From Gammaproteobacteria bacterium (GTDB lineage Bacteria > Pseudomonadota > Gammaproteobacteria > Xanthomonadales > Xanthomonadaceae), in the NCBI GenBank assembly GCA_012515985.1, contig JAAYXJ010000062.1, positions 1 to 32,313 of the forward strand: DNA of 32,313 nt, in the 5' to 3' direction. Position 1 is the first letter of the stretch. Each line of letters opens with the position of its first letter. A program made the translations under genes and the position numbers. Below are positions 3,046-18,521 of the stretch, in pieces. Below the pieces are notes generated by a model that was not told the origin of the DNA, did no database searches, and saw only the letters and a program-made list of their open reading frames with translations.

Positions 3046-3978
3046 ATGGCGCAGCAGGAAGAAGGGCGCGACGGTCGGGCATGGCTGTGGATGCTGGCCG
3101 GCGCGGCGATCATTGGCAGCAACGGGCTGATGGTGCGCTTTGCCGAAACCCCGGCCACCATTTCCGCCTTCTACCGGATGCTGTTCGCCGGGCTGATGCT
3201 CGCTGCCGTGCTCACAGTGCGGGGCGGGTGGCGCCCGCTGCCGCGCCAGGTCTGGTGGTGGTGCGCGGCCGCGGCAGCCGCATTCGCCGCCGACCTGTGG
3301 CTGTGGCATCGCAGCATCCTGCTGGTGGGCCCCGGTCTGGCGACGCTGCTGGCCAACGCCCAGGTCTTCTTCATGGCGTTGGCCGGGATGGTGCTTTTCG
3401 GTGAGCGGGTGGGGCTGCGTTTCGCATCCGGGATCGCGCTGGCGTTCTTCGGGCTGTACCTGATGCTCGGCGGTGACTGGGACAGCCTGCCTCCGCAGTA
3501 CCGCTGGGGCGTGTGGGCCGGACTGGGTACCGGGCTGTGCTACGCGCTGTACAACCTCTCGCTGCGTCGCGCGCAGGGCGAGGCGCGCGCCGGGGCCGCC
3601 GCCGGCGCGAGGGCGCCGATCGAGCAGGTCCTCGCGGTGATCGCACTGCTTTGCGCCGTGCTGCTGGGAATGGCCGGACTCGCCGAGGGAAGTTCCTTCG
3701 TGATCCCGAGCTGGCAATCCCTGGGCTGGCTGCTGCTCCTGGCAGGCCTGGGGCATTGCCTGAGCTGGGTGCTGATCTCGCGTGCGATGGCGCACCTCAA
3801 GGTGGCGGTGGTTGGCCTGCTGCTCCTGCTGCAGCCGATCGTGGCGTTCCTGCTTGACCTGGTGGTGCTGGAGATCACGGTCGAGCCGCGTGCCTGGGTG
3901 GGCCTGGCGCTGACCCTGGCGGGGATCTTCCTGGCCAGTCTCAGGGGCCGGTCGCGGCTGCCGGGCCCGGCAGCGTGA
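3046..3978 (+). CDS. EamA/DMT-family transporter
   Basis: A 310-aa integral membrane protein, expected to export small metabolites, with about ten hydrophobic helices arranged as two EamA repeats. The first repeat begins WLWMLAGAAIIGSNGLMVRFA and contains the typical FYRMLFAGLML helix; the second begins near GVWAGLGTGLCYALYNLSLRRA and ends with the LLLLQPIVAFLLDLVVL helix and a basic tail. The start at 3046 (MAQQEEGRDG) places a short polar N-terminus before helix 1; the track start at 2908 would run back into the GGDEF gene. It lies 55 nt downstream of the cyclase but has its own -10-like TAAGCT. The substrate cannot be told from sequence. Confidence 0.85.
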   Translation: MAQQEEGRDGRAWLWMLAGAAIIGSNGLMVRFAETPATISAFYRMLFAGLMLAAVLTVRGGWRPLPRQVWWWCAAAAAAFAADLWLWHRSILLVGPGLATLLANAQVFFMALAGMVLFGERVGLRFASGIALAFFGLYLMLGGDWDSLPPQYRWGVWAGLGTGLCYALYNLSLRRAQGEARAGAAAGARAPIEQVLAVIALLCAVLLGMAGLAEGSSFVIPSWQSLGWLLLLAGLGHCLSWVLISRAMAHLKVAVVGLLLLLQPIVAFLLDLVVLEITVEPRAWVGLALTLAGIFLASLRGRSRLPGPAA

Positions 3979-7980: not shown

Positions 7981-8544
7981 TTAGATCTTGCCGACCAGGT
8001 CCAGCGACGGCTTCAGGGTCTTCTCGCCTTCCTTCCACTTGGCCGGGCAGACCTCGTTCGGGTTGGCGGCGACGTACTGGGCGGCCTTCAGCTTGCGCAG
8101 GGTCTCGCTGACGTCGCGGGCGATGGCGTTGTCGTGCACTTCCATCGTCTTGATCACGCCTTCCGGGTTGATGATGAAGGTGCCACGCAGGGCCAGGCCT
8201 TCGTCATCCAGGTGCACGCCGAAGGCGCGGGTCAGCTGGTGGGTCGGGTCGCCGACCAGCGGGAACTGGGCCTTGCCCACCGCGTCGGAGGTCTCGTGCC
8301 ACACCTTGTGGGAGAAGTGGGTGTCGGTGGTGACGATGTACACCTCGGCACCGGCCTTCTTGAACTCCTCGTAGTTCTCGGCGGCGTCCTCGACCTCGGT
8401 GGGGCAGTTGAAGGTGAAGGCGGCCGGCATGAAGATCAGCACGGACCACTGGCCCTTCAGGCTGGCCTCGGTGACTTCAATGAACTCGCCGTTGAGGTAA
8501 GCGGTGGTCTTGAAAGGCTGGACTTCGGTATTGATCAGGGACAT
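7981..8544 (-). CDS. ahpC: Alkyl hydroperoxide reductase subunit C (peroxiredoxin)
   Basis: Typical 2-Cys peroxiredoxin that reduces H2O2, organic hydroperoxides and peroxynitrite, then is recycled by AhpF. The start at 8544 gives [12 protein letters not shown] and exactly 187 aa, the usual AhpC length. The peroxidatic cysteine is Cys47 in [13 protein letters not shown]; the resolving cysteine is Cys166 in [12 protein letters not shown] lies 5-6 nt before the ATG. The track's 42 extra N-terminal residues read into the promoter and 5' UTR and are not real. It is the first gene of the ahpC-ahpF-oxyR cluster, with an OxyR box and promoter just upstream. Confidence 0.98.
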
Positions 8545-8576
8545 GTATTCCTCATGTGATTGGAGAGGGGAAGAAG

Positions 8577-8591
8577 GCCGGCAGTGCCGGC
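8577..8591 (-). promoter_or_regulatory. Small hairpin in the ahpC 5' UTR
   Basis: GCCGGC-act-GCCGGC on the minus strand can fold into a 6-bp stem with a 3-nt loop, about 35 nt before the ahpC ATG, followed by a pyrimidine-rich tract. It may affect mRNA stability or ribosome access. Confidence 0.3.
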
Positions 8592-8601
8592 AGCGGGATG
8601 A

Positions 8602-8630
8602 ATGATAGGGAGGGTGAATCGATGTGTAAA
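8602..8630 (-). promoter_or_regulatory. Predicted OxyR-activated ahpC promoter
   Basis: On the minus strand TTTACA (8630-8625) and TATCAT (8607-8602) are separated by exactly 17 bp. The -35 directly abuts the OxyR box, the geometry expected for a promoter that OxyR activates by touching RNA polymerase. The start of transcription would fall near 8595, giving a leader of about 50 nt. Confidence 0.6.
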
Positions 8631-8667
8631 ATCGATAGATATTATATTTGTAATAGACCCTATCAAT
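8631..8667 (-). promoter_or_regulatory. OxyR binding site upstream of ahpC
   Basis: The minus strand reads ATTG-N7-CTAT-N7-ATAA-N7-CGAT, which fits the OxyR tetramer pattern ATAG-N7-CTAT-N7-ATAG-N7-CTAT at 13 of 16 positions with all spacings exact. The site ends at the base before the predicted -35. Confidence 0.65.
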
Positions 8668-8670
8668 CAA
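8641..8670 (-). promoter_or_regulatory. Second sigma70-like promoter overlapping the OxyR box
   Basis: TTGATT (8670-8665), an 18-bp spacer and a perfect TATAAT (8646-8641) lie on the minus strand inside the OxyR box. If used, OxyR binding would block it; it might serve basal expression, or the TATAAT may be chance in an AT-rich operator. Confidence 0.35.
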
Positions 8671-8755
8671 GCTTTCGCTTCAAGTGGCATTGTCGATCGT
8701 CCCCGTGCGGAGTGCATTGACCCAGGTCAGCTGCCGTGGACTGGCCGCAGACCGA

Positions 8756-8761
8756 TAGACT
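8756..8761 (+). promoter_or_regulatory. TAGACT -10-like element at the prmC start
   Basis: GATAGACT ends 6 nt before the prmC ATG, with no Shine-Dalgarno between, which suggests a leaderless mRNA. It lies in the 11-nt loop of CCGCA (8745-8749) / TGCGG (8761-8765), sharing one base with the second arm. Confidence 0.45.
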
Positions 8762-8767
8762 GCGGCG

Positions 8768-9622
8768 ATGGATCACTCACCAACCGTGGAGGCCGCGCTG
8801 CGGCGCGCGAGGGGCCGCGTGGAGGCCCACGAGGCCGTCCTGCTCATGGCGCATGTGCTGGGGCGCCCGTCAGCCTGGCTCTACGCACATGGCGACGCGA
8901 GCATGGAAGAGGCCGACGCGCACCGGTTCATGAAGTTGGTGGAGCGCCGGGCGGCCGGCGAGCCGGTGGCCTACCTGACCGGCAGGCGCGGCTTCTGGAC
9001 GCTGGATCTCGCCGTTTCGCCCGATACCCTCATCCCGCGCCCGGAGACCGAGCGCCTGGTGGAGCTGGCGCTTGAACGCGTGCCTCCCGAGGCTTCCGCG
9101 CGCGTCCTCGACCTGGGCACGGGCAGTGGCGCGATTGCCCTGGCGCTGGCCCGGGAGCGCCCCCGGGCGCTGGTCACCGCCACCGACCGCAGCAATGCGG
9201 CGCTGGCGGTCGCGCGCCGGAACGCGGCGGACCACGCCATCAACAACGTGGCCTTCCTGCCGGGCGACTGGTACCAACCGGTGGCCGGCGGGCGGTTCGA
9301 CCTGGTCGTCTCCAATCCGCCCTACATCGCCGGGGGCGATGCGCACCTGGCGCGCGGGGACCTGCGCTTCGAGCCTGCCGCGGCCCTGGCCTCGGGTGCC
9401 GACGGCCTCGATGCGCTGCGGGTGATCAGCGCCGGCGCGCCGCGGCACCTGCATCCGGGCGGCTGGCTGCTGGTCGAGCACGGCATGGACCAGGGGAGCG
9501 CGGTGCGCGCCCTGTTCCTGGGGGCCGGGCTGGAGAACGTCGGGACCGCCCGCGACCTGGAAGGCCGCGAGCGGGTGACCTTCGGGCAGGCGGCCGGGGA
9601 GCCCGTCGCCCGGAGCGGCTGA
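8768..9622 (+). CDS. prmC: Release factor glutamine methyltransferase PrmC
   Basis: N5-glutamine methyltransferase (HemK family) that methylates the GGQ motif of RF1/RF2 using S-adenosylmethionine. The 284-aa product has an N-terminal helical bundle (1-75, with [20 protein letters not shown]), the linker hairpin [29 protein letters not shown], the SAM motif [16 protein letters not shown] and the substrate-binding NPPY at 183-186, the same position as in E. coli. The track ATG is kept because it directly follows a -10-like TAGACT. Its stop codon overlaps the -10-like element of the next gene. Unlike in E. coli it is not next to prfA. It is divergent from ahpC. Confidence 0.95.
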
Positions 9623-9628
9623 TAAACT
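9623..9628 (+). promoter_or_regulatory. TAAACT -10-like element before the iminopeptidase gene
   Basis: GATAAACTGC overlaps the prmC stop codon and lies 32 nt before the pip start. It matches the other TAnnnT elements; no good -35 is seen. Confidence 0.35.
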
Positions 9629-9660
9629 GCCCGGTTTGCAGACCGAGCCCGGGAGGGCCC

Positions 9661-10605
9661 ATGCGCACCCTGTATCCGGAGATCGAGCCCTACGACAGCG
9701 GGATGTTGCCGGTGGACGGGCGCCACACCCTCTACTACGAGCAGTGCGGCAACCCGAAGGGCAAGCCGGTGGTGGTTCTGCACGGCGGGCCCGGTGGCGG
9801 CAGCAGCCCCAAGATGCGCCGGTTCCACGACCCGGCCAGGTACCGGATCGTGCTGTTCGACCAGCGTGGGGCCGGCCGCTCGATCCCGCATGCCGATCTC
9901 ACCGACAACACCACGTGGCACCTGGTGGAGGACATCGAGACCCTGCGTGGGCACCTTGGCATCGATCGCTGGCAGGTGTTCGGCGGCTCCTGGGGGTCGA
10001 CCCTCGCCCTTGCCTACGCGCAGACCCATCCGCGCGCGGTCACGGCGCTGCTGCTGCGCGGCATCTTCACCCTGCGCCGTTGGGAGGTGGAATGGTTCTA
10101 CCAGCAGGGTGCCTCGCGGCTGTTCCCGGAAGCCTGGGAGCAGTACGAAGCCGCGATCCCGGAGGACGAGCGCCACGACTTCCTCGCGGCCTACCACCGG
10201 CGCCTGACCAGCGACGACGAAGCGACACGCCTGGCGGCCGCGCGCGCGTGGAGCGTGTGGGAAGCGGCGACCTCGTTCCTGCACGTTGACGAGGACTTCG
10301 TGCGCGGCCACGAGGATCCGCATTTCGCGCTGGCGTTTGCCCGCATCGAGAACCATTACTTCAGCAACCGCGGCTTCTTCGAGGTCGATGGCCAGCTGTT
10401 GCGCGATGTCTACCGGATGATCGACATCCCGGGGGTCATCGTCCACGGCCGCTACGACGTGGTCTGCCCGGTGGCCAACGCCTGGGACCTGCACAAGGCC
10501 TGGCCGAAGTCGGAGCTGGTGATCACCCCGGCCTCCGGCCACTCCGCGTTCGAGCCCGGGAACGTCGACGCGCTGGTGCAGGCCACCGACCGCTACGCGG
10601 TCTAG
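9661..10605 (+). CDS. pip: Proline iminopeptidase (alpha/beta hydrolase, S33)
   Basis: Cytoplasmic peptidase that removes N-terminal proline from peptides. The 314-aa product opens with YPEIEPYDSGMLPVDGRHTLYYEQCG, characteristic of the bacterial Pip family. The oxyanion motif HGGPGGG begins at His41, followed by FDQRGAGRS. The nucleophile elbow GGSWGS has Ser110; Asp266 in GRYDVVCP and His294 in SGHSAFEPG complete the likely triad. The ATG follows GGGAGGGCCC. It ends in a CTAG shared with the stop of the convergent NUDIX gene. Confidence 0.95.
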   Translation: MRTLYPEIEPYDSGMLPVDGRHTLYYEQCGNPKGKPVVVLHGGPGGGSSPKMRRFHDPARYRIVLFDQRGAGRSIPHADLTDNTTWHLVEDIETLRGHLGIDRWQVFGGSWGSTLALAYAQTHPRAVTALLLRGIFTLRRWEVEWFYQQGASRLFPEAWEQYEAAIPEDERHDFLAAYHRRLTSDDEATRLAAARAWSVWEAATSFLHVDEDFVRGHEDPHFALAFARIENHYFSNRGFFEVDGQLLRDVYRMIDIPGVIVHGRYDVVCPVANAWDLHKAWPKSELVITPASGHSAFEPGNVDALVQATDRYAV

Positions 10606-11168: not shown

Positions 11169-12100
11169 GCCAACACCTCCGTGCCGGCGGCCGCGAATGG
11201 CAGACCTGAGGCTTCGTGCAGCCGCCGGCGGGTCATCGGCCCGAAGCCCAGCGCCCAGCACAGTTCCGGCAGCGCCCCCGCATCCGCCTGGCCGCGGGCG
11301 AAAGGAGCCTTGGTCCCGGTGAGCGGCGCGTCGCAGGCGACGGTGGCGAGCCTGCGGTACAGCAGCGCCTGTTCCCGGTGCTCGCGCAGGCGGGCGGCGA
11401 TCCCGGTGGCGCCGCGCAGGCGCAGGAACGGCACTTCGTCGACTCGCCCGAGCAGTGCGTCAAGGCTGCCGAAGTGGGCCAGCAGCGCGGCCGCGGTGCG
11501 TGCGCCCACCCCGGGCACGCCGGGGATGTTGTCGCTGGCGTCCCCGCACAGGGCAAGGAAATCAGGGACCTGTTCGGGGTACACGCCGTGGCGCGCATGG
11601 ACGCCATCGGGTCCCCAGCGCAGCCCGCGCGCGAAATCCCACTGCTCGTCGCCCGGACCCAGCAGCTGCGAGAGGTCCTTGTCGGCGGAAACAATCACCC
11701 CGCGATGGCCCACGGCCCGCCCCTGCGCCAGCGCAGTGCCGATGAGGTCGTCGGCCTCGTAGCGAGGGTGGGTGAGCACCGGCAGGCCAAGCACCATGCA
11801 CAGGGTTCGGCAGTAGGCGAACTGCCGCTTGAGCGTATCGGGCGCCGGCGGGCGGTTGGCCTTGTAAGCCGGGAACAGGGCGGTGCGGAAGCAGTTGTCG
11901 TGGGCCTCGTCGAAGGCCACGACCACATGCCGCGGGCGCTCGTCCTCGAGCACATCCAGCAGGAACCGGGCGAAGCCGTGGACGGCGTTGGTCGGCCAGC
12001 CGTCGGCGTCATGGGACTCGTCCGGCATGGAGTGCCATGCGCGGAACACGTACAGGCTGGCGTCCAGCAGGTACAGGGGTGGACGCGCGGCGGGGCTCAC
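11165..12100 (-). CDS. 5'-3' exonuclease / flap endonuclease-like (ExoIX type)
   Basis: A 311-aa stand-alone relative of the N-terminal 5'-3' exonuclease domain of DNA polymerase I. Metal-binding motifs are visible in order: YLLDASLYVFRAWHSMP near the N-terminus, VVVAFDE (about 59-65), the arch-region FRTALFPAYKANRPP, RYEADDLIGTAL, VSADKDLSQLL and the helix-hairpin-helix ALCGDASDNIPGVPGVGARTA. The C-terminus is longer than in E. coli Xni (251 aa). It starts with GTG inside a GTGA overlap with the nitroreductase stop and ends in another GTGA overlap with the NUDIX gene, so the three are probably translationally coupled. It could process flaps or degrade damaged ends; that role is inferred. Confidence 0.87.
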   Translation of the reverse strand: MSPAARPPLYLLDASLYVFRAWHSMPDESHDADGWPTNAVHGFARFLLDVLEDERPRHVVVAFDEAHDNCFRTALFPAYKANRPPAPDTLKRQFAYCRTLCMVLGLPVLTHPRYEADDLIGTALAQGRAVGHRGVIVSADKDLSQLLGPGDEQWDFARGLRWGPDGVHARHGVYPEQVPDFLALCGDASDNIPGVPGVGARTAAALLAHFGSLDALLGRVDEVPFLRLRGATGIAARLREHREQALLYRRLATVACDAPLTGTKAPFARGQADAGALPELCWALGFGPMTRRRLHEASGLPFAAAGTEVLA

Positions 12101-12687
12101 GGCCGCCAGTCGCGGAGCAGGTCGCGCGGATCCGGCCGCTCACGCTCGGGGGCTTCCGCGGTCGGGGTGCCGATGTGGATGAACCCGGCGATCCGCTCGT
12201 GCTCCGACAGGCCCAGGCGCGCAAGGACGTCGTCGTCATACGCCGGCCACCCGGTCAGCCACTGCGCGCCAAAACCTTCCGCCTGGGCGGCGACGAGCAG
12301 CGAAAAACACACGCAGCCGGCACTCAGCAGGCGCTCCTGGGCCGGGATCTTGTGGTCTTCAGGGTCCAGCACCGCGACGACCGCAACCACCAGGGGCGCG
12401 CGCGAGAACCGCTGCCGGTCCTTCTCCAGCACCGCCGGCGGCGTGTCGGGGTCGCGCTTGCGGGCGATCTGCTCAAGCTCCTCGCCCAGCCGATGGCGGG
12501 CTTCACCTTCGATGGTGATGAACCGGAACGGCACCCGCCGGCCATGGTCGGGCACGCGCACGGCGGCCTCGAGCATGCGCAGCAGGGTCGGTCGGTCCGG
12601 GCCGGGGGCCTCGAGCAACCGGGCGGGGGTGGAGCGGCGGGCGGCAAGCGGCGCTGGACCGTTGCCTTCATTTGGGACGGGGCTCAC
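12097..12687 (-). CDS. Nitroreductase-family flavoprotein (YdjA-like)
   Basis: A 196-aa FMN-dependent oxidoreductase. Family features are the N-terminal RRSTPARLLEAPGPDRPTLLRMLEAAVRVPDHGRRVPFRFITIEG block, with the RRS phosphate-binding segment, and the AAQAEGFGAQWLTGWPAYDDDVLARLGLSEHERIAGFIHIGT block, which reads like the YdjA/small nitroreductase group. The GTG start at 12687 is supported by GAGG 8 nt upstream; the track's 87 extra residues overlap the divergent DUF1631 gene. First gene of the operon with the exonuclease and NUDIX genes. The physiological substrate is unknown. Confidence 0.85.
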   Translation of the reverse strand: MSPVPNEGNGPAPLAARRSTPARLLEAPGPDRPTLLRMLEAAVRVPDHGRRVPFRFITIEGEARHRLGEELEQIARKRDPDTPPAVLEKDRQRFSRAPLVVAVVAVLDPEDHKIPAQERLLSAGCVCFSLLVAAQAEGFGAQWLTGWPAYDDDVLARLGLSEHERIAGFIHIGTPTAEAPERERPDPRDLLRDWRP

Positions 12688-12713
12688 AGACGTAACCTCG
12701 TTCAATTCAGGAT

Positions 12714-12742
12714 GGTATACCGTACGGCACGCAACCCGTGCC
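12714..12742. promoter_or_regulatory. Palindromic divergent promoter region (nitroreductase / DUF1631)
   Basis: The 76-bp gap holds GGTATACC (12714-12721), a palindrome that offers a TATACC -10-like hexamer on both strands, and a perfect 6-bp inverted repeat GGCACG-caacc-CGTGCC (12726-12742). The arrangement suits a shared divergent promoter or operator. Confidence 0.35.
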
Positions 12743-12763
12743 TTTCCCCCGATTGTGGCCCGA

Positions 12764-15142
12764 ATGGCGTCCAGAGACGACATCGCAGACATCCCGCGTC
12801 CCCGCGCGGTTCCATCCGGCAGCCGGGATGCGGAACGGATCCTCGAGCGCCTCAAGCGCGAAGCCGTGACCGAGCTCGTCGGCGTGCTCTCCGGCTTCTG
12901 GAGCGCGATCGAGGAGCAGGTGCGGCTCGCGGCGCTGGCCGGCCACAACTTCAGCGCGGCCCAGGAAGACCGCGTGGCCGTGCTCGCACTCAGCCACCGC
13001 GCGCTGGAGCTGGCGACCCGCTACCGCGAGGCGGTGGAGGCGGCGTTCGAATACTGGCGCCAGCCCGCCTCGCAGCCAGAACGGCCCCACGACCTGGAGC
13101 TGATGTCCGAGGGGGAACTGGAAACCCACCTGGCCGGGCAGCAGATCATCGAGCTGCTCGAGCACCAGTTCCTGCACCCGCTGGCGCAGCTGGACGAGCG
13201 GCTGGAGGCCCTGGCCGCCAGCATTGGCATCCAAGGCAACCCGCTCAACCCGCTGCGGCCGGAGGTGGCGGTGTCCGCGTTCGTCGACCTGTTCGACGCG
13301 GACGACCTCACGCCGGGCCTGCGGACGATGGTCTTCCAGCAGTTCGACAAGCGCCTTCCCAAGGTGCTGGGCGAGGTGTATTCCAAGGCCAACGCCACCC
13401 TGGCCGAAGCCGAGTATGGCGGCCAGGGGCAGGCCTATCGTGCGCGGTCCCGGCGCTCCGCCGAGCGGGCGTCACCGCGCACCGGGGAAGAACGCGCGCA
13501 ATGGGTTCCCGACGGCGGCCTGGTCGAGCCGATTGCGCCGGTAGGCGGAGCGGGCGCCGGGGGCGGGGCGACTGCGGGAGGGGAACGCGAGGGCGCCGGC
13601 GGTGGCGGCGGCGGATACGCTGCGGCGGGCGACAACGCAGGGCAGCCGCTGCGCTATCGCGACATCGTGCGCGAACACCTGCGCGCATGGCGCGCCCGCG
13701 GCGGCCTGCACCCGGTCCCGGCGGATGAGGGCCCCAGCGTGGCCGATGAGGCCAGCGCGCTGGCCGATGCCGCGGCCGAAGCCGCCGGCGACGTCCTCGA
13801 GACGCAGGACATGCTCAACGTGGCCTCGATGCTGCAGGGAGCGGACCCGACGCCCTATGCGCGGGTGCTGGCAGGCGAGGACAGGCGGGCCCTGGCCGAC
13901 GTGATCCGGGCGGAGATCCTGGGCGGCGTGGAGCAGCTGGGCTTTGACCCGGAAACCACCCGCTTCGCCGCCGACGAGCAGGACGCCATCGATCTGGTCG
14001 GCATCCTGTTCCAGTCGCTGTACGACGCCAACGACCTGCTGCAGCGCGCAAGTTCGATGTACGGGCGCCTGGTGCTGCCTTACGTCAAAGTGGCGCTCAC
14101 CGACGATTCGATGTTCAACCGCCGCAGCCATCCGGCGCGCCGCCTGCTGGATGCACTGACCGAGGCGTGCGATGGCAACAGCGGGCAGACACCGCAGGAC
14201 CGTGAGACGCTCGAACGGGCCGAGCACGCGGTCGACCGGGTGGTGGAGGAGTACCAGGACGACCAGGCCATCTTCGAACTTGCCGCCAGTGAGCTGCGTG
14301 ACCAGCTCGACCAGCAGCGGAGGCGCACGGAGGTGGCCGAGCGGCGTGTGGCCGAGGCCATCCACGGACGCGAACGGCTGCAGGCCGCGCGGCGCAACGC
14401 CGAGAGCCTGGTGGCCTCGCGGCTGGCCGGCCGGCCCCTGACCCAGCCCATCGCCCAGTTCATCGACGAACACTGGCGCCACTACCTGACCCAGACGTGG
14501 CTGCGCGACGGGCCGGAATCGGAGCGTCATCGCCGTGCGATCGGGCTGGGCGACGCCATGGTCCAGGTGGATGCGGACGCGGCGCAGGTCCGCGGCTCCG
14601 CGGTCGCCGCGCAGCTGCTCGCGCTGCAGGCGCCGCTGGGCGAGTGCTACACCAGCTGCGGGCTGGATGCCGAAGGCGCGCGCGACTCGCTGGCACGGAT
14701 CATCTCCGCGCTGGCGATGCCCGACACCCCGCGCTCCACTTACGAGCCCCGTGCCGACGCGCAGGACGAGGCCGGTGACGACGAAACCGGGGTACCGCTG
14801 CGCCTGGCTGGCGGCCTCGACAGCCTCGAGCACGATCCTGCCGTCGCGGCGCGCATGCGCAGGCTGAAGGTCGGCCAGGGCTTGCGGTTGATTGATCGCC
14901 ACGGCCGCGAGTCGGCCGCGCGGATCGCCTGGATCAGCCCACTGACCTCCCGGTTCCTCATCGTCAACCGCCGCGGGGTGCGCCAGATGGTAGTGTCCCC
15001 CGAGGAGCTGGCGGTCCTGGTGGCCAATGGACGCGCGCAGGTCCGCTCGGTCGAATCGCCGTTCGATGAGGCCATGAAGCAGCTCTGGCAGCGTCTGCAG
15101 CAGGCGCCTTCTCCCACCAGGCGGGCGGCCAATTCGGGCTGA
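12764..15142 (+). CDS. DUF1631 family protein, copy 1
   Basis: A 792-aa, mostly helical, probably cytoplasmic protein of unknown function, recognised as DUF1631 (sometimes mislabelled thymidine phosphorylase). The N-terminal third includes LMSEGELETHLAGQQIIELLEHQ and LRPEVAVSAFVDLF. A Gly-rich linker (about 262-290) follows, then DAIDLVGILFQSLYDANDLL, EHWRHYLTQTWLRDGPES, and a C-terminal beta-rich segment with ARIAWISPLTSRFLIVNRRGV. The start at 12764 avoids overlap with the divergent nitroreductase; no strong Shine-Dalgarno was found, and a GTG at 12755 is an alternative. The next gene is a diverged paralog. A link of the C-terminal barrel-like segment to PilZ-type folds is only a suspicion. 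Confidence 0.8.
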   Translation: MASRDDIADIPRPRAVPSGSRDAERILERLKREAVTELVGVLSGFWSAIEEQVRLAALAGHNFSAAQEDRVAVLALSHRALELATRYREAVEAAFEYWRQPASQPERPHDLELMSEGELETHLAGQQIIELLEHQFLHPLAQLDERLEALAASIGIQGNPLNPLRPEVAVSAFVDLFDADDLTPGLRTMVFQQFDKRLPKVLGEVYSKANATLAEAEYGGQGQAYRARSRRSAERASPRTGEERAQWVPDGGLVEPIAPVGGAGAGGGATAGGEREGAGGGGGGYAAAGDNAGQPLRYRDIVREHLRAWRARGGLHPVPADEGPSVADEASALADAAAEAAGDVLETQDMLNVASMLQGADPTPYARVLAGEDRRALADVIRAEILGGVEQLGFDPETTRFAADEQDAIDLVGILFQSLYDANDLLQRASSMYGRLVLPYVKVALTDDSMFNRRSHPARRLLDALTEACDGNSGQTPQDRETLERAEHAVDRVVEEYQDDQAIFELAASELRDQLDQQRRRTEVAERRVAEAIHGRERLQAARRNAESLVASRLAGRPLTQPIAQFIDEHWRHYLTQTWLRDGPESERHRRAIGLGDAMVQVDADAAQVRGSAVAAQLLALQAPLGECYTSCGLDAEGARDSLARIISALAMPDTPRSTYEPRADAQDEAGDDETGVPLRLAGGLDSLEHDPAVAARMRRLKVGQGLRLIDRHGRESAARIAWISPLTSRFLIVNRRGVRQMVVSPEELAVLVANGRAQVRSVESPFDEAMKQLWQRLQQAPSPTRRAANSG

Positions 15143-15176
15143 CCCCCAATTCATCCCTGGCGCCGGTGCAGTGGCG

Positions 15177-15182
15177 TAAACT
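15177..15182 (+). promoter_or_regulatory. TAAACT -10-like element before the second DUF1631 gene
   Basis: TAAACTGC lies about 64 nt before the start, flanked by GCAGT (15168-15172) and ACTGC (15180-15184), the second arm overlapping the hexamer. Suggests the second DUF1631 gene has its own promoter. Confidence 0.3.
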
Positions 15183-15245
15183 GCGAGGCGTGTCACAGGT
15201 TGGTCGGGCCGGGTGCGCGGCAGCTGGACGCTGCAGGGGGGAAGC

Positions 15246-17387
15246 GTGGTGCAGTCCAGGGTGGGCCAGGAAGAGCGGCGCGGCGGCGATGCCCGGGCGC
15301 AGCTCATGGCGTCGATCGGTCATGGCATGCTCGGTTTCCTGCAGCCGCTGCTGCTGGGCAGCGTCGCCGCAGAACGCGACCGGCTCGCCCGCGCCGGGGA
15401 GGATGCAGCCGCGGCGCAGGCGCAGGTGGTGGAAGACCTCGCCAACCTCAACATCATCATCAACGGCATAACCGCCTACGAACGGCGCTGGCGCAGTCGC
15501 CTTGACCGCATCCTGCAAGCCTGGCCACGACCTCCCGCAGGTCCGCAGGCCAGTTTCAGCCTGGTTTCCGACGATGAGCTGCAGGGCCAGCTGGTGGGAC
15601 AGCCGGTGATCGACGCGCTCGAACGGCGCCACGCCGACATCCTCGACACCCTGGAGAAACGGCTGTGGACCCTGGCCGCGCAGCTGGGTGCGGAACAGGC
15701 TCCGGAGAATCCGTTCTCGCCCAGGCACCTCGTGGACGGGCTGCTGGAAACCCTCACCCCGGCCGACTGCGGCCCGGCGTTGCGGGCGACGCTGCTGCGC
15801 CGCTTCGAGCAACTTGGGGCGGTCCGGCTGGGGGAAGCCTACGACTGGTGCAACCGGCAGCTCGCCGAGGCCGGGATCGGGCTGGCGAGCACCGCCGACT
15901 ATGCAACCCTGGCTGCCACCACCATCGCGGCCCAGCGGCCGGCGCCGCCGCCGGCCAGGCTGCAGGTGTGGGGGCCGGACAACGCGGTGGCGCCGGTGCG
16001 CTCGAGCTGGCGCGGGGTGGAAGAGGGCACGCGCGCTGCAGGCGCGGTGCGCGGCGCCATGCTGCGGCACGCTGCCCGCGCGCGGCGAGCCCGGTCCGGT
16101 CCGCGCCCGGCCGGCGCGCGTGAGCTCCGGGATGAGGAATTCCTGGCGGCCGTGTCGCTCCTCCAGGTGGATCCCGCGCCGCTGCCTGGCGCCGGTGCCG
16201 GCTCCGCCGCCGCCGCCGCCCGCCAGGCGCTGCTTGGAGCCGCCGCGAGCCTGGGGATCGACAGCGCCTCCGCGACGCCATCGGCGGAACAGGAAGACGC
16301 GATCGACGTCGTCGGCGGACTGTTCGATGCGCTGGTGGCAGGTCATCTCCTGCAGCCTGGCGCGCGGGATTCGCTCGCCGCGTTGCTGCTTCCGTACCTT
16401 CGCCTGGCGTTGCTGGAGCCGCGCATGTTCGAGCCGGCCCAGCCGCCGGCGATGCAGCTCCTGGCGCGCCTGGTCCAGCTTTGGGACGGCAACGGCCGGG
16501 CCAGCGAACACGAAACGCGGCTGCATGAACTGGCCGATGCGACCGCGCGCGAAATCGTCGCCGATTTCCACGGCGATGCCGGTGCGTTCGCAAACGCCCT
16601 GGTGCGGCTTGAAGACGCATTGGCCCCGCTGTCCCGACGCGCCGATCTTGCGGCGCGCCGGGCATGGCAGGCGATCGAGGGCGGGGAACGGCTGGACGCT
16701 GCACGCGCGGCCGCCGCCCGGGAACTGGCCGTGCGGCTGGAAGGGCGCGAGCTGCTGCCGGCGGTGACCGCCTTCCTCACCGGCCATTGGCAACAGTCGC
16801 TGGTGCAGGCGTGGCTGCGCGCCGGGCCCGGATCGCCGCGCTTCGCGGAGGCCGCCGCGCTCGGCGACGCCGTGGTGCGCCTGGACGCCGCCGCGCGCGC
16901 AGGGGCGGGTGGGACGGTCGCGTCGACACTGATCGGCCTGCAGCCCCGGTTGCAGGCGTGCTGCCAGGCGAATGGGGTGGACGGGACGGCTGCGGACGCG
17001 GAGATCGCTCGGCTCGTGGCCGATCTGGCCCAGCCCGATGCCCCGCGCCATCCGTATGTGCCCGCCGGGACGCCCGGTGCGCCCGCTGTGAATGGCGGCG
17101 GCGCCGGCGGAATCGCAGGGGAACTGGAACCCGGGCGCCGGCTGGTCCAGAACCCGTCCGGCGGGCCTCCCCGGGCACTCACGCTGGCCTGGCGCAGTCC
17201 GCTCACCGGTGCCCTGCTGCTGGTCAACGCCCAGGGTTCCCGCGAACTCCTGCTGCGTCCCCCGGAACTGGCGGCCATGCTCGCCGATGGACGGCTCGTG
17301 CTGCGCCCGCCCGGGGACCCGGTCGAGGCGGCGCTGCAGGGCCTGGAGCGCGCCTGGGCTGCGCCCGGTCCCGGTGGATCAGGCTAG
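15246..17387 (+). CDS. DUF1631 family protein, copy 2 (diverged paralog)
   Basis: About 713 aa, function unknown. Collinear similarity to copy 1 is visible by eye: LQGQLVGQPVIDALERR against LETHLAGQQIIELLEHQ; DAIDVVGGLFDALVAG against DAIDLVGILFQSLYDA; GHWQQSLVQAWLRAGPGS against EHWRHYLTQTWLRDGPES; LAWRSPLTGALLLVNAQG against IAWISPLTSRFLIVNRRG. It is richer in Ala and Arg and lacks the long Gly linker. The GTG at 15246 is preferred because AGGGGGGAAGC precedes it; GTG 15213 and ATG 15306 are in frame and possible. The stop TAG overlaps a TAGGAT element before pntAA. Same strand as copy 1 with about 100 bp between. Confidence 0.75.
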   Translation: MVQSRVGQEERRGGDARAQLMASIGHGMLGFLQPLLLGSVAAERDRLARAGEDAAAAQAQVVEDLANLNIIINGITAYERRWRSRLDRILQAWPRPPAGPQASFSLVSDDELQGQLVGQPVIDALERRHADILDTLEKRLWTLAAQLGAEQAPENPFSPRHLVDGLLETLTPADCGPALRATLLRRFEQLGAVRLGEAYDWCNRQLAEAGIGLASTADYATLAATTIAAQRPAPPPARLQVWGPDNAVAPVRSSWRGVEEGTRAAGAVRGAMLRHAARARRARSGPRPAGARELRDEEFLAAVSLLQVDPAPLPGAGAGSAAAAARQALLGAAASLGIDSASATPSAEQEDAIDVVGGLFDALVAGHLLQPGARDSLAALLLPYLRLALLEPRMFEPAQPPAMQLLARLVQLWDGNGRASEHETRLHELADATAREIVADFHGDAGAFANALVRLEDALAPLSRRADLAARRAWQAIEGGERLDAARAAAARELAVRLEGRELLPAVTAFLTGHWQQSLVQAWLRAGPGSPRFAEAAALGDAVVRLDAAARAGAGGTVASTLIGLQPRLQACCQANGVDGTAADAEIARLVADLAQPDAPRHPYVPAGTPGAPAVNGGGAGGIAGELEPGRRLVQNPSGGPPRALTLAWRSPLTGALLLVNAQGSRELLLRPPELAAMLADGRLVLRPPGDPVEAALQGLERAWAAPGPGGSG

Positions 17388-17417: not shown

Positions 17418-18521
17418 ATGGGCCTGACGATCGGTGTCGCGCGCGAGTCCGCGCAAGGGGAGCGGCGGGTTGCCGTCACCCCGGAAACCTGCCGGAAACT
17501 GGTGGCTGCAGGGGCGAGTGTCCGGATCGAACGCGGCAGCGGCGCGGGTTCGCACTTTCCGGACCCGGCCTATGCGGATGCCGGCGCCGAGGTGGTGGAC
17601 ACCGCCGCCTCCGCGCTTGGGGATGCAGACCTCGTGCTGTGCGTGCAATCACCCGCTGCCGACGCCATTGCCACGCTCAGGCCCGGCGCGGTGCTGGTGG
17701 GCATCCTGCAGCCGCAGGCCGATCCGGCGCGGGAGGCAGCGCTTTCCGCGCGCGGGATCGTGGCGTTTCCACTCGAGCGCCTGCCGCGCACGACCCGTGC
17801 CCAGGCCATGGACGTGCTCAGCTCCCAGGCCGGCATGGCCGGCTACAAGGCGATGCTGGCGGCGGCGTGGCTGGCGCCAGGGTTCTTCCCGATGCTCACC
17901 ACCGCCGCCGGGACGATCCGGCCCTCGAAGGTGCTGGTGATCGGCGCCGGCGTGGCCGGGCTGCAGGCAATCGCCACAGCCAGGCGGCTTGGCGCGCAGG
18001 TGGAGGGTTTCGACGTGCGCCCGGAGACCCGCGAGCAGATTGAATCACTGGGCGGACGCTTCCTGGACCTGGGCGTGAGCGCCGTCGGCGAGGGCGGCTA
18101 TGCGCGCCAGCTGACCGACGAAGAGCGCGCGGAACAGCAGCGCAGGCTCGGCGAGCATCTGCGGAGCATCGATGTGATCGTGTGCACTGCGGCCGTGCCC
18201 GGGCGGCCGGCCCCGAAGATCGTCACCACCGCCATGGTGGAAGGCATGAAGCCGGGCAGCGTGGTGGTGGACCTTGCGGCGGAGACCGGGGGCAACTGCG
18301 AGCTCACGCGCCCCGGGGAGACCGTGGAGCACGCCGGGGTCACCGTCACCGGCCCCCTGGGACTGGCCAGCCAGGGTGCGCGGCACGCCAGCGAGATGTA
18401 TGCGCGAAACCTGCTCAACTTCACCATGCTGCTCATCGTCGACGGCGCGCTCGCCCTGGACTGGGAAGACGAGCTGCTGGCGAAAACGGTGTGGCCGGAG
18501 CGGGAGGGCGCGCCGGCCTAG
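17418..18521 (+). CDS. pntAA: NAD(P) transhydrogenase subunit alpha part 1 (NAD-binding domain I)
   Basis: Soluble NAD(H)-binding component of the proton-pumping transhydrogenase, which uses the proton gradient to make NADPH from NADH. The 367-aa product starts GVARESAQGERRVAVTPETC, the AlaDH/PNT N-terminal signature; the catalytic-domain Rossmann motif is VIGAGVAGLQAIATARRLGAQV (about 174-195), and EGMKPGSVVVDLAAETGGNCELT is the conserved block near the NAD site. It ends after this domain, so the membrane part is a separate gene (pntAB), as in other split PntA systems. GGAG lies about 10 nt before the ATG. Unusually, an inverted three-gene operon separates it from pntAB-pntB. Confidence 0.95.
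   Translation: MGLTIGVARESAQGERRVAVTPETCRKLVAAGASVRIERGSGAGSHFPDPAYADAGAEVVDTAASALGDADLVLCVQSPAADAIATLRPGAVLVGILQPQADPAREAALSARGIVAFPLERLPRTTRAQAMDVLSSQAGMAGYKAMLAAAWLAPGFFPMLTTAAGTIRPSKVLVIGAGVAGLQAIATARRLGAQVEGFDVRPETREQIESLGGRFLDLGVSAVGEGGYARQLTDEERAEQQRRLGEHLRSIDVIVCTAAVPGRPAPKIVTTAMVEGMKPGSVVVDLAAETGGNCELTRPGETVEHAGVTVTGPLGLASQGARHASEMYARNLLNFTMLLIVDGALALDWEDELLAKTVWPEREGAPA

Follow-up and report, generated by a model that had tools for sequence, protein, structure and literature searches.

The DUF1631 locus and its closest relatives

A close counterpart of the locus analyzed here is the NCBIfam family PacR (NF058594), whose 1200-bit cut-off is passed in several sister genera by the DUF1631 gene lying in the slot between a nitroreductase gene and pntA. 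In the open-licence literature, searches for PacR returned only matches that look unrelated, and searches for the family gave almost nothing on DUF1631, three papers that each mention it once, and none on its Pfam accession, PF07793. An earlier note on this DNA had spoken of a family with no known function. That wording needs a qualification, since the gene that sister genera carry in this position has a named model, even though the searches brought up no text describing PacR.

The window, that is, the whole stretch of 32,313 nucleotides analyzed, comes from a Luteimonas genome and carries two consecutive DUF1631 genes on the same strand, A and B (Table 1). The Pfam scan gave 366.7 bits for A (profile positions 5-741) and 264.4 bits, split into two stretches, for B, both above the PF07793 gathering score of 33.7 bits. 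As in the Pfam family, each protein covers nearly all 741 profile positions; B departs from it in lacking the near-invariant arginine of the HPAR motif and in having a C-terminal end that matches the profile weakly. The B ORF is also open from a GTG at 15213, which would give 724 aa. A BLASTP comparison of A with B yielded 147 bits (E = 5e-41), with 35% identity over residues 392-784 of A, about the last 395 amino acids. The two N-terminal halves are tied through the DUF1631 profile and not by pairwise BLASTP. The earlier note had proposed two adjacent, diverged DUF1631 paralogs that share several collinear blocks over their full length, including a common WxSPLT...VN..G segment at the end. 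The scores bear this out, and the segment falls inside the BLASTP alignment. Sequence searches returned no solved structure for either protein.

Table 1. Features of the A/B locus and the related gene C. Positions refer to the window unless another contig is named.
Feature	Position	Strand	Basis
Gene A, slow-evolving DUF1631 protein, 792 aa	12764..15142	+	ATG 12764, stop 15142
A residues 19-215, helical N-terminal domain	12818..13408	+	AlphaFold2 model
A residues 221-294, disordered Gly/Ala-rich linker, pLDDT < 50	13424..13645	+	AlphaFold2 model
A residues 298-651, helical core	13655..14716	+	AlphaFold2 model, fold search
A HPAR motif (H456-R459), near-invariant across DUF1631	14129..14140	+	Alignment
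A residues 692-779, putative C-terminal SH3/Tudor-like barrel	14837..15100	+	AlphaFold2 model, Foldseek
Gene B, fast-evolving DUF1631 paralog	15306..17387	+	First ATG 15306, stop 17387
B counterpart of HPAR (PPAM, arginine lost)	16443..16454	+	Alignment
B counterpart of the putative C-terminal barrel	17124..17357	+	By alignment
Divergent nitroreductase-like ORF, conserved upstream neighbour of the slot	12097..12948	-	Predicted from sequence
pntA-like transhydrogenase subunit, conserved downstream neighbour	17418..18521	+	Predicted from sequence
Gene C and surroundings: third DUF1631 gene, followed directly by a PilZ gene, and a GGDEF protein about 5 kb off	Contig C44 of the window's genome (G000): 8014-10574 and 3205-3678

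The order nitroreductase-A-pntA is fixed across the Lysobacteraceae, and Luteimonas is the only genus in which B was seen to separate A from pntA. The open 5' end of the nitroreductase-like ORF overlaps A, its true start probably being near 12690, and 30 bp separate the B stop from the pntA-like ORF. The location characteristic of the PacR genera is also that of A and B, and PacR further resembles them in its long similarity to A and in often occurring as a tandem pair. However, A and B score only 384.3 and 188.8 bits with the PacR model, under its cut-off, and PacR forms a separate clade on the tree with a tandem duplication of its own. In the PacR genera the fast copy lies upstream, whereas in Luteimonas the fast copy, B, lies downstream. 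Tandem DUF1631 pairs recur in Luteimonas, in the PacR genera and at three other loci (L053, L183 and L232). At L183 the adjacent DUF1631 proteins are long, and GGDEF and EAL domains were detected in the one that was scanned; L183 and L232, the latter with adjacent DUF1631 genes, both lie elsewhere in the class. Scanning the A-B region for promoters and terminators was uninformative.

Duplication history and loss of B

A tree of 106 DUF1631 proteins, in which Luteimonas is represented by 33 A and 20 B sequences, placed all Luteimonas A proteins in one clade and all B proteins in another, the two being sisters with full support; the trees were quick searches run without bootstraps. When A-type genes of the sister genera were added, B remained in the A lineage and the exact point of duplication was weakly resolved. 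Since A and B form sister clades, the duplication is older than crown Luteimonas; B may have originated on the stem of the genus or a little before it. The phylogeny thus speaks against a placement of A and B in unrelated families, the outcome that the earlier note had named as its refutation.

B is kept in 20 of the 33 Luteimonas genomes that have A and is absent from the other 13, counts that do not represent independent events. B is lost repeatedly while A stays, and A therefore works alone. The description of the pair as long-maintained holds as far as its origin before the genus crown and its retention in these genomes are concerned, but it needs qualifying, since B was lost many times. 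Pairwise dN/dS values were 0.08-0.15 for A and, in six pairs, 0.11-0.29 for B, which indicates that B evolves faster than A and yet is under purifying selection. In itself the A/B pair is unremarkable, an old tandem duplicate with one conserved and one fast copy.

Some loci depart from the common arrangement. In Luteimonas padinae (L117, the same locus as L051, 8001-10136) B is split over two reading frames. In four Luteimonas loci (L062, L063, L065 and L066) the pntAB block is inverted relative to A, which stays with the nitroreductase gene, and B is gone. A B-like DUF1631 gene at L122 (5920-7983) lies downstream and not upstream of pntA; its branch is very long and its placement unsure.

Loss of the HPAR arginine in B

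The near-invariance of HPAR was derived in this analysis and is not part of Pfam's definition of DUF1631. A, C and the majority of the other members, most PilZ-GGDEF-EAL fusions among them, keep the arginine of the motif, which is replaced by methionine or leucine in 19 of 19 intact B copies. Most of the other positions conserved in the family are kept in B, among them the C-terminal W-S-P...G. Since the other tandem duplicates examined (L053 and L191) retain the arginine, the change is specific to B. The divergence between the copies proposed in the earlier note is supported by the faster rate of B and its loss of this residue.

Predicted structure and the C-terminal barrel

An AlphaFold2 model of A, built from 40 aligned A and B sequences, had a mean pLDDT of 82.7; the fold of B would be the same by homology to A. 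Searched as a whole against the PDB, the A model gave nothing that reached an E-value of 0.001, and the helical core was without a significant match. In that model the C-terminal part forms a five-stranded barrel with its strands between residues 706 and 760; taken alone, this part had a pLDDT of 86. Foldseek assigned this part to Tudor/SH3-like folds with a probability of 1.0, a best E-value of 2e-3 and a TM-score of about 0.6 of a 57-residue target. The segment is alike in fold to the Tudor/SH3-like domains of PHF1, PHF19 and PHF20L1, a likeness that is structural only and has weak E-values. The C-terminus of A is thus probably a small SH3/Tudor-like barrel, and because these matches are weak they do not point to one class of ligand.

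The earlier note had suggested testing this segment for a ligand-binding barrel, with PilZ-type barrels as the comparison. A small beta barrel is indeed present in the A model, but it is not PilZ-like: hhalign against PilZ gave a probability of 0.34%, no Pfam PilZ match was obtained, and PilZ was absent among the 50 best PDB matches of the C-terminal model.

DUF1631 and PilZ in relatives

DUF1631 was present in 75 of 229 genomes sampled from the class, about one third. Gene C, on another contig of the window's genome (74% complete), belongs to the same family as A and B but, in contrast to them, has a PilZ gene directly downstream; after this pair comes a pepQ-like gene, and a GGDEF protein is encoded about 5 kb off. 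In the C-type clade the PilZ domain begins 0-113 nt past the DUF1631 stop in 29 of 29 tree rows, and the C-linked PilZ has RxxxR in all cases and NxSxxG in most. Among 42 genomes searched, this PilZ was found in 23 of 23 with a C-type DUF1631 gene and in 0 of 19 without, one of the latter (G230) having been checked for DUF1631 with the B protein alone. The unit is present twice at L053. A structure search for the C-linked PilZ returned none at an E-value of 0.01.

The association is also found within single proteins. Many genomes of the class encode proteins of 1200-1450 aa in which DUF1631 is combined with GGDEF and EAL. An N-terminal PilZ domain scored above the Pfam cut-off in 10 of 11 full-length DUF1631-GGDEF-EAL proteins of two scanned sets; in three more in the order (L071-L073) it fell just below. 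PilZ-DUF1631-GGDEF-EAL fusions are common in Gammaproteobacteria. As in A and B, their DUF1631 region has a recognisable C-terminal segment, with an HPAR-like motif in most; unlike A and B, which stand alone, it is joined to domains for c-di-GMP sensing, synthesis and hydrolysis. The fusion PilZ domains, mostly with RxxxR and DxCxxG, are missed by the stand-alone PilZ profile. This difference suggests that the DUF1631-PilZ association arose more than once. Nothing usable on the C-linked PilZ or on the fusions was found in the open-licence literature.

Concerning A and B themselves, both fall outside the PilZ-linked clade on the 106-protein tree. Only two PilZ genes occur in the window's genome, and both lie away from the A/B contig. 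In relatives, no PilZ near A was detected by the stand-alone profile, one that divergent PilZ domains would escape. A role of A and B in c-di-GMP signalling is for these reasons carried over from other DUF1631 subfamilies and would hold by analogy. B appeared restricted to genomes with C and its PilZ gene (20/20 versus 8/15; Fisher p about 0.001), a figure that we discounted as evidence because the genomes share ancestry and C was lost independently only a few times among them.

Proposed role of A and B

Tandem duplication of the slot gene gave rise to A and B. Our preferred reading, to which we give a probability of about 0.45, is that DUF1631 proteins are helical c-di-GMP adaptors, and that A is the conserved adaptor and B a diverged modulator. 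From their genomic associations, DUF1631 proteins would most likely be helical adaptors in c-di-GMP output. They would link the c-di-GMP sensing of a PilZ domain, which is either fused to them or encoded by the adjacent gene, to a partner further down the pathway, and the small C-terminal barrel might serve as a docking module. For A the input would come from a c-di-GMP component that is not linked to it, and B would be a modified copy modulating A, most simply through hetero-association or competition for the same partner. A wider claim, that DUF1631 proteins are widespread, undescribed PilZ-partner adaptors and that B, deprived of the HPAR arginine, regulates A with no dedicated PilZ gene, is put forward only tentatively and is somewhat doubtful.

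Most likely, B is a modified copy that acts on A or together with it, the main alternative being a slowly decaying duplicate. In the latter case only A would be functional, and B would be a relaxed copy in the course of being lost, retained through chance or a weak benefit of dosage and having no separate role. Its absence from 13 genomes, the split frame in L. padinae and its faster rate would all agree with such decay. On the other hand, relaxation would hardly leave dN/dS at 0.11-0.29, most family-conserved positions in place and one and the same arginine exchanged for methionine or leucine in every intact copy, and the tree puts the duplication before the genus crown; we regard decay as rather unlikely. 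A and B might instead act as a heterodimer, which would be the functional unit in genomes that have both. The several origins of tandem DUF1631 pairs would be expected of a complex assembled from unequal copies, but most other genera, like those 13 Luteimonas genomes, have A without B, so any A-B dependence would be one-sided; we regard this reading as unlikely.

The neighbourhood suggests another function altogether, in which the slot gene, together with the nitroreductase and the PntAB transhydrogenase, would serve redox or NADPH metabolism and not c-di-GMP signalling. The conserved order across many genera of the family and the short distance from B to pntA favour it. However, A remains by the nitroreductase gene in the four Luteimonas genomes where pntAB is inverted, DUF1631 genes in other families of bacteria have other neighbours (purE/purK and quinolinate phosphoribosyltransferase at L075, PilZ and pepQ at C-type loci), and the Pfam scan of A and B showed no redox domain; this function appears improbable.

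Under the adaptor reading, the constant DUF1631-PilZ pair, its all-or-none co-occurrence and the fusions would give an uncharacterised family a testable role in c-di-GMP (PilZ) signalling, since other members are tied to it. They raise the question of whether DUF1631 binds PilZ and how c-di-GMP affects that binding; A and B offer a natural contrast, HPAR arginine present versus absent, within one genome.

Other DUF1631 and GGDEF proteins were observed in the course of the analysis. The window that holds A and B also encodes, at 705-2990 on the forward strand, a 761 aa ORF with a GGDEF domain at 2487-2957 (142.6 bits). Genome G480 carries several DUF1631 copies (L172, L174 and L175) of about 480-500 aa that consist of the C-terminal two thirds of the family alone.
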